The notes under the pieces: model-generated
Databases searched by the model: none
Seen by the model: the letters and a program-made list of their open reading frames with translations, nothing else
Told to the model about the DNA's origin: nothing
Position numbers and translations under genes: made by a program
Shown: one piece after another, positions 22,824 to 23,818 of the stretch
Layout: each line of letters opens with the position of its first letter
Numbering within the stretch: the stretch's first letter is position 1
IMG/VR virus record: IMGVR_UViG_3300020418_000031
Coordinates: 1 to 28,613 of that record
Reading direction: 5' to 3' (one strand)
From: a virus
DNA length: 28,613 nt

Positions 22824-22952
22824 ATGGCTCCTATCGAATTCGTAGACTCAGTAGAGTTTTTAATTGATAAGTTACATTATCTGATTGAAGAAGGCAAGAC
22901 AGAGGAGGCAGAGATTGTAGCGTCACAAATTAGACAGATTGAAACGACATGA
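22824..22952 (+). CDS. Small acidic protein (42 aa)
   Basis: 42 residues: APIEFVDSVEFLIDKLHYLI, then a helical acidic segment EEGKTEEAEIVASQIRQIE. First gene after the sigma70 promoter. The stop overlaps the ATG of the dioxygenase (ATGA), so the two are coupled. No motif identifies a function. Confidence 0.65.
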   Translation: MAPIEFVDSVEFLIDKLHYLIEEGKTEEAEIVASQIRQIETT

Positions 22953-23521
22953 TGGAATTCCCATTCCGTGTCCCAATCTGCACTTACGAGATTGAAGACT
23001 GGGAAGAGAAGAAAAAATCCATCCAACTACCAGACCTAGCAGATAAACATCTGGATCAGGGTGTGGAAGTTTATACTGACTTTTTTGAATGGGATCATGC
23101 AGGCACATTGCCACCGTATGCTGACCAAGTTTTTAAGGCAGCAGCAATCCCTATAAATAAATTCAAAAAAAGTGGTTGCCTTGGTCGCAATCATCAGATG
23201 GAGATCTCATCAATGTGGTTTGAGTCTCAACTAGATTCTCATAAACACCGAGTGCACAACCATGGCATGTATGGTTGGTCATGCATTCTTTATTATGATT
23301 TCAATGAAAACATACACATGCCAACAACTTTTTACTCACCCTTCCATGACTTCAAGGATGGCAACTTAATGTCGTACGTCCCAAGAGTTAGGGAAGGGTC
23401 GATTGTGTTCTTTCCTGCAGCATTGCACCATGAATCAATTCCGAATAGATCCCCTGTCAAGAGGACGATCATCTCCTTTAACGTTAAAGGACATGTAGAC
23501 AAGACTAAAGCAATTATTTGA
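22949..23521 (+). CDS. Putative 2OG-Fe(II) dioxygenase-like protein
   Basis: 190 residues. The C-terminal half has the double-stranded beta-helix pattern of 2OG-Fe(II) enzymes: H103-N-H105 in RVHNHGMYGWSCILYYDF, a turn region, then GSIVFFPAALHHESIPNRSP with H160/H161 as distal ligand and R172 as the likely 2-oxoglutarate anchor before TIISFNV. The first pair is HxH-like rather than the standard HxD/E, so activity needs testing. Substrate unknown. The stop codon lies in the 5' arm of the tRNA-like structure at 23520. Confidence 0.8.
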   Translation: MMEFPFRVPICTYEIEDWEEKKKSIQLPDLADKHLDQGVEVYTDFFEWDHAGTLPPYADQVFKAAAIPINKFKKSGCLGRNHQMEISSMWFESQLDSHKHRVHNHGMYGWSCILYYDFNENIHMPTTFYSPFHDFKDGNLMSYVPRVREGSIVFFPAALHHESIPNRSPVKRTIISFNVKGHVDKTKAII

Positions 23522-23580
23522 TTCAGTGTATGGTGCATTTAATAGGTTCGATTCCTGTCTGAATCATTGGCGAAAGCCAA
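23520..23580 (+). ncRNA. Truncated tRNA-like RNA structure with adjacent GNRA hairpin
   Basis: GATTCAG (23520-23526) pairs perfectly with CTGAATC (23559-23565) like a 7-bp acceptor stem. The next A could act as discriminator. Inside is a canonical T-arm: ATAGG-TTCGATT-CCTGT (23542-23558), with one G-U pair. TGTA-TGG-TGCA (23527-23537) could be a tiny D-arm. No anticodon arm is present, and the total is about 47 bases instead of 72-76. TTGGC-GAAA-GCCAA (23567-23580) follows directly. The element overlaps the upstream stop codon and precedes the ATG at 23606. It is not a functional translation tRNA; it may be an mRNA processing or stability signal or a tRNA remnant. Confidence 0.5.
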
Positions 23581-23605
23581 GTCCCAACAGAAAAGGAGTT
23601 TACTA

Positions 23606-23818
23606 ATGTCAGTAAAGGATCGTTTTTCAAATCGTATGTCCATTCTAAGGTCAGCGATCAACGGCGAGGTTGAATTGGATAAAGAATACCCAACTTTATT
23701 TCAAGCACTCTGTAGGTTTTATGCCGATAAACGTCGTGTCCAATTCTGGGGTATTGATGTTGAGGAGGATTATGAAATTCTAATCGACAATCTAAATTAT
23801 GATTTAACTTATGGATGA
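23606..23818 (+). CDS. Small conserved protein (70 aa)
   Basis: 70 residues from the ATG at 23606, preferred over the earlier TTG at 23567 because AAAAGGAG lies about 8 bases upstream and because the longer start would run through the GNRA hairpin. Content: SVKDRFSNRMSILRSAINGE, LDKEYPTLFQALCRFYADKR, then an acidic end (GIDVEEDYEILIDNLNYDLT). Helical and mixed-charge; no motif. It overlaps the next gene by 8 bases, so it is coupled to a JmjC/cupin-like dioxygenase. Confidence 0.65.
   Translation: MSVKDRFSNRMSILRSAINGEVELDKEYPTLFQALCRFYADKRRVQFWGIDVEEDYEILIDNLNYDLTYG

Follow-up and report, generated by a model that had tools for sequence, protein, structure and literature searches.

A miniature tRNA-like element in a viral DNA stretch of 28,613 nt (the window) is a tRNA derivative, descended from an intact tRNA-Arg(UCU) at its own locus, a conclusion that comparison with related phages can be taken to settle. 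The element lacks an anticodon arm and is embedded in an operon, between an oxygenase gene and a gene for a conserved cyanophage protein. That this former decoding tRNA now serves as a t-element-like mark for RNase P and RNase Z in a polycistronic mRNA is the best reading that we can offer, although we consider it evenly balanced between true and false; it presumes that the transcript runs through the element, that both enzymes cut there, and that the cuts bring a benefit.

The preliminary description of this region had noted a perfect 7-bp acceptor stem, a T arm with the loop TTCGATT, the lack of an anticodon arm, an A followed by a second hairpin capped by GAAA, and overlap with the upstream stop codon, and all of these features are borne out. 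The acceptor pairs are all Watson-Crick (7/7), no CCA is encoded, and the minimum-energy fold contains both the acceptor and the T arm. The possible D arm also mentioned there is less secure: the hairpin TGTA-TGG-TGCA (23527–23537) forms three pairs in the centroid fold, but it is absent from the minimum-energy fold, includes a U-G pair, and has no covariation support. The folding energy of the element relative to shuffles is modest (z −1.6), and since this value is unremarkable the case for the element does not depend on energy. Neither ARAGORN nor Rfam (including RF00005) calls a tRNA at this position, and no tmRNA, with its tRNA-like domain and tag reading frame, was found in the window. 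An antisense match to Plastid-ycf2 returned by Rfam at a permissive threshold (19.1 bits, against a gathering value of 65.7) was ignored. A descriptor of the architecture, specifying seven paired acceptor bases, a linker of 8–25 nt, a 5-bp T stem, and a TTCRA loop, has 8 distinct matches in 2.03 million bases of scanned strand from the collected loci, three of which are versions of the mini element, and no matches in shuffled copies of the scanned strand (2 Mb).

Features of the tRNA-like element and its flanks, numbered from the first nucleotide of the window.
Feature	Position	Strand	Remark
Upstream gene, 2OG-Fe(II) oxygenase (PF13759)	22949..23521	+	TGA stop at 23519–23521 shares the first two bases of the element
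Whole element: acceptor 5′ strand, linker, T arm, acceptor 3′ strand, discriminator, in that order	23520..23566	+	followed directly by the hairpin
Acceptor 5′ strand GATTCAG	23520..23526	+	RNase P predicted to cut at 23519/23520
Linker of 15 nt, TGTATGGTGCATTTA, replacing D and anticodon arms	23527..23541	+	possible weak D-arm remnant of 3–4 bp, GG in loop
T arm ATAGG-TTCGATT-CCTGT	23542..23558	+	5/5 paired, one G-U
Acceptor 3′ strand CTGAATC (23559–23565) and discriminator A (23566)	23559..23566	+	predicted RNase Z cut after 23566
Hairpin TTGGC-GAAA-GCCAA (GNRA) adjoining the tRNA-like 3′ end	23567..23580	+	in relatives position and fold kept, sequence not
Ribosome-binding site AAGGAG of downstream gene	23593..23598	+	read directly from the sequence
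Downstream gene, conserved 70-residue cyanophage protein, function not assigned	23606..23818	+	present in 357 phage records

The element begins inside the upstream TGA stop and ends 39 nt ahead of the next start codon, and no promoter- or terminator-like signal was found between the upstream and downstream genes. It had earlier been placed between two dioxygenase genes, but the next reading frame encodes the 70-residue protein and no dioxygenase, and the cupin/JmjC-like and 2OG-Fe(II) oxygenase genes lie after that. The window also contains strong Rfam matches to manA RNA (RF01745; 21394–21583), upstream of a talC-like gene, and to PhotoRC-II RNA (RF01717; 27677–27776), upstream of a psbA-like gene.

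Evidence for the origin of the element comes from its relatives. Cyanophage P-TIM40 (Kyanoviridae, host Prochlorococcus NATL2A) carries an annotated tRNA-Arg with anticodon UCU (NC_028663.1, 171832–171904) at the matching intergenic position, and a pairwise alignment matches its acceptor, T arm, and 3′ flank to those of the window, where the tRNA middle is missing. An intact tRNA-Arg(UCU) is found just upstream of the 70-residue gene in ∼70 of the ∼85 IMG/VR loci that have this gene and usable upstream sequence; in these loci it is sometimes followed by tRNA-Val or tRNA-Asn. The truncated 46-nt form is present in the window and in nine further contigs. These ten sequences make up one clade (support 95/96, one change needed) in a tree built from the two genes that follow the element, with L012 and L021 as the nearest intact relatives, and the simplest account of this topology is that the anticodon arm was lost once, in one lineage. 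The suggestion of a deliberate tRNA mimic was thus mistaken as to origin. With tRNA pseudogenes the element shares descent from an intact gene and the loss of decoding, and with t-elements it shares homology to a tRNA gene, seen in the syntenic intact tRNA-Arg of relatives.

Other truncations of this tRNA were sought with the pattern GATTCAGT-N(5-35)-GGTTCGANTCC, which matched 69 stretches, none of which outside the one truncated clade has the acceptor paired 7/7 at the right offset; a search with a model of the mini form found no second copy in the cyanophage records searched. Two apparent mini-tRNAs were rejected, L083 because upstream sequence completes a full-length tRNA and L069 because it is a normal tRNA-Val, and the "tRNA-Pyl" that ARAGORN reports in L192/L193 proved, when inspected, to be an Arg(UCU) gene assigned to the wrong type.

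The hairpin that follows the element is itself a nearly constant companion of the tRNA. Of 33 distinct relatives, nearly all have a stable hairpin that begins 0–2 nt past the tRNA discriminator base, or past the last tRNA where there are two. Its stem takes many different sequences (for example TGGGC/GCCCA, GTCC/GGAC, CGGGC/GCCCG, TTGGC/GCCAA). As judged from these loci, the conserved module is tRNA, abutting hairpin, and gene, with the tRNA of the window lineage evidently cut down to a minihelix.

Across 12 sequences of intact and mini forms 144/144 pair cells pair, far above slid controls (only 22–51% paired) and shuffled controls, and two-sided changes occur at 7/12 pairs. Full pairing with two-sided changes is expected of any tRNA. 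In the mini clade alone, which is the informative case, only one-sided changes are seen: 12/12 pairs survive, three sites vary (two in stems, one in the linker), and both stem sites alternate A/G opposite U with pairing kept. No compensatory change of both partners after truncation was found in this clade, and the two-sided T-stem change may predate the truncation or have come by recombination. Stems broken without compensation, which had been named as evidence against the element, were sought within the clade and none was found.

The extent of substitution was compared between the deepest lineage of the clade, L011/L056, and other members. Divergence of L011/L056 from L007/L057 is ∼15% over 4.9 kb of DNA, and from the L006–L009 group ∼20/61 four-fold sites of gene 23811 differ (∼34%). 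Between L011/L056 and L007/L057 the 47-nt element has 0 differences, where 47-nt segments average 7.1, and the 86-nt element plus spacer has 1; segments equally conserved make up 2.1% (47 nt) and 0.3% (86 nt) of the alignment, and no 86-nt segment within ∼1 kb is as conserved as the element plus spacer. The corresponding values for the window versus L010 are 26% and 17%, with no significant under-substitution. The two variable stem sites are linked and do not follow the gene tree, L011 and the L006 type having one state and L010 and the window the other; recombination has therefore probably touched the element, and could also homogenize it. Because pairing is intact and the element is identical across the most diverged lineages, the acceptor/T-arm minihelix is more likely than not still under selection, although recombination or a recent truncation may also account for its conservation.

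Nevertheless, the element may be a young tRNA pseudogene, in which decoding was deleted, the remnant drifts, and pairing is left over because of short elapsed time or copying by recombination, the main rival reading, which we hold to be somewhat improbable. The single origin of the truncated form and the ordinary conservation between the window and L010 are in keeping with it, and recombination is evident nearby in the homoplasy of the two variable sites and in a gene of ∼625 nt that, among contigs otherwise ∼97% identical, some have and others lack directly at the 5′ side of the mini-tRNA (window 23519/23520 versus L057 3129–3753). This insert seems to correspond to gp203 of P-TIM40, annotated as "minor coat protein", and its presence or absence exactly at the 5′ edge of the element marks the tRNA edge as a recombination boundary. 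In addition, L194, L195, and L198 have lost the 5′ half of the tRNA-Arg upstream of the 70-residue gene homologue without replacement, the upstream reading frame extending into the T arm and stopping at a TGA in the acceptor 3′ strand. This decay, independent of the loss in the truncated clade, indicates that the function is dispensable somewhere, which keeps the pseudogene reading alive. However, free drift accords poorly with the lack of any difference between lineages as diverged as L011/L056 and L007/L057, and with retention of pairing at both variable stem sites, for which the chance per random stem substitution is 0.18–0.41. Loss of the tRNA through absent codon demand was rejected, since the window genes use AGA more than any other Arg codon (82/249) and demand is thus not absent.

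The processing model that we propose starts from a tRNA-Arg(UCU) gene from which a single event, in one lineage of Prochlorococcus/Synechococcus myoviruses, removed ∼27 nt covering the anticodon arm and the greater part of the D arm. The remnant can no longer decode, and the minihelix with its abutting hairpin would persist because it still works as a t-element in the operon mRNA. Cleavage by host RNase P would fall within the UGA stop codon and that by RNase Z at 23566/23567, which would place the GNRA hairpin at the very start of the downstream message. A 5′-terminal stem slows RNase E-type decay, and the hairpin at the new 5′ end could protect the downstream message. Because the element starts within the upstream UGA, cleavage would leave the oxygenase message without a stop codon; overlap of the tRNA start with the upstream TGA is also found in P-TIM40. 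A U precedes the predicted RNase P cut and G1-C72 forms the first pair, both favorable features for RNase P. These two features, the lack of an encoded CCA, the continued pairing of both arms, and the under-substitution of the segment in one comparison lend indirect support to the processing reading, which the preliminary description had raised alongside a 3′-end stabilizer and a decayed tRNA. For bacterial RNase P stacked acceptor and T stems suffice (PMC11221534), cyanobacterial RNase P favors substrates lacking CCA (PMC4264200), and RNase P substrates also include certain mRNAs and phage RNAs, M3 and C4 among them (PMC11143913). In Haloferax both RNase P and tRNase Z process t-elements, which are tRNA-like structures located where transcripts end (PMC4326828), and plant mitochondrial t-elements are RNase P/RNase Z substrates that receive CCA but are not charged (PMC11658184). 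In its anatomy the mini-tRNA corresponds to an element of this type.

The same architecture could be kept purely as a stacked hairpin that stabilizes mRNA ends, the 3′ end of the oxygenase message and the 5′ end of the next, without cleavage by tRNA enzymes, which we regard as quite unlikely. The twelve stacked pairs with a GNRA hairpin and the conservation of the 3′ hairpin in nearly all relatives would suit such a role, but it leaves the kept T-loop TTCGANT and the tRNA geometry unexplained, and the predicted stability is ordinary. We consider it very improbable that the mini-tRNA is released and works in trans, perhaps by titrating, as a decoy or sponge, some tRNA-binding enzyme of host or phage for which the acceptor and T arms are enough. 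Having no anticodon, such an RNA would escape anticodon nucleases, which would favor this role, as would the binding of minihelices by several tRNA enzymes (see PMC11221534 above), but the element is single-copy and embedded in an operon.

Further tRNA-like elements were encountered in other phages. An unrelated 50-nt element in L053 (4054–4103), with a 7-bp acceptor GACGATA/TATCGTC and a T arm, also lacks an anticodon arm and has no ARAGORN or Rfam call, and L046 (1320–1440) contains a tRNA-like T arm and acceptor core within a larger inverted repeat, TACTACATCATG...CATGATGTAGTA, possibly a structured RNA. The mini-tRNA model and a T-arm scan also led to the large-phage contig L053 (7289–12208), where some twelve tRNA-Leu-like elements are interspersed among short genes. 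A scan for their 3′ end matched at least 120 stretches, placing a multi-copy, intergenic family in large phages (L053 and loci L204–L283). Among the matches listed, 90/114 instances examined have no ARAGORN tRNA call, and the 85 distinct elements mostly have a 5′ AGTCAGG-TGGCG, a variable middle, and a 3′ T arm plus acceptor (ACAGGTTCGAATCCTGTCCTGACTA); of these 85, 6% lie inside ORFs versus 68% of random positions, and the median distance to the next ORF is 96 nt versus 236. Some are called by ARAGORN once introns are permitted, so that intron-bearing tRNAs, degenerate tRNAs, and tRNA-like punctuation are all possible. It is conceivable, though unlikely, that phages recurrently convert tRNA genes to anticodon-less punctuation, as in the cyanophage mini-tRNA-Arg and the large-phage tRNA-Leu-like family, both being cut by host tRNA-processing enzymes that define mRNA ends.

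The mini element offers a natural case of a tRNA gene between decoding and an RNA-structure role, with the ancestral intact state kept in sister phages. If the predicted cleavage is true, the element would count as a phage t-element, operon-embedded phage tRNAs would have an mRNA-processing role separable from translation, and this would provide a simple possible reason for the retention of some phage tRNAs. A literature search in which subscription papers were thinly covered found no report of phage t-elements or of phage tRNA-like elements without an anticodon arm.

Compared with known systems, the window form resembles tRNA-Arg(UCU) of P-TIM40 in lying between the same genes, in the acceptor 5′ strand GATTCAG, the T arm, the hairpin abutting the 3′ end, and the TGA overlap, whereas nothing is left of its anticodon arm and little of its D arm, and its discriminator is A rather than G. 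The t-elements of plant mitochondria and haloarchaea are likewise tRNA-derived or tRNA-like and located at gene boundaries, and those of plants also have no encoded CCA; these are recognized by RNase P and RNase Z, whereas cleavage of the window element is predicted and its carrier is a phage. To our knowledge, described t-elements are near full length and occur in cellular or organellar genomes. Minihelix model substrates of RNase P have the same stacked acceptor and T stems, but they are synthetic and usually carry a 3′ CCA, whereas the window element is natural and has a 15-nt linker bulge. M3 RNA and the C4 antisense RNA of P1/P7 are phage RNAs that host RNase P cleaves although they are not tRNAs, and such cleavage is predicted here too, although neither, as far as we know, is descended from a tRNA gene.
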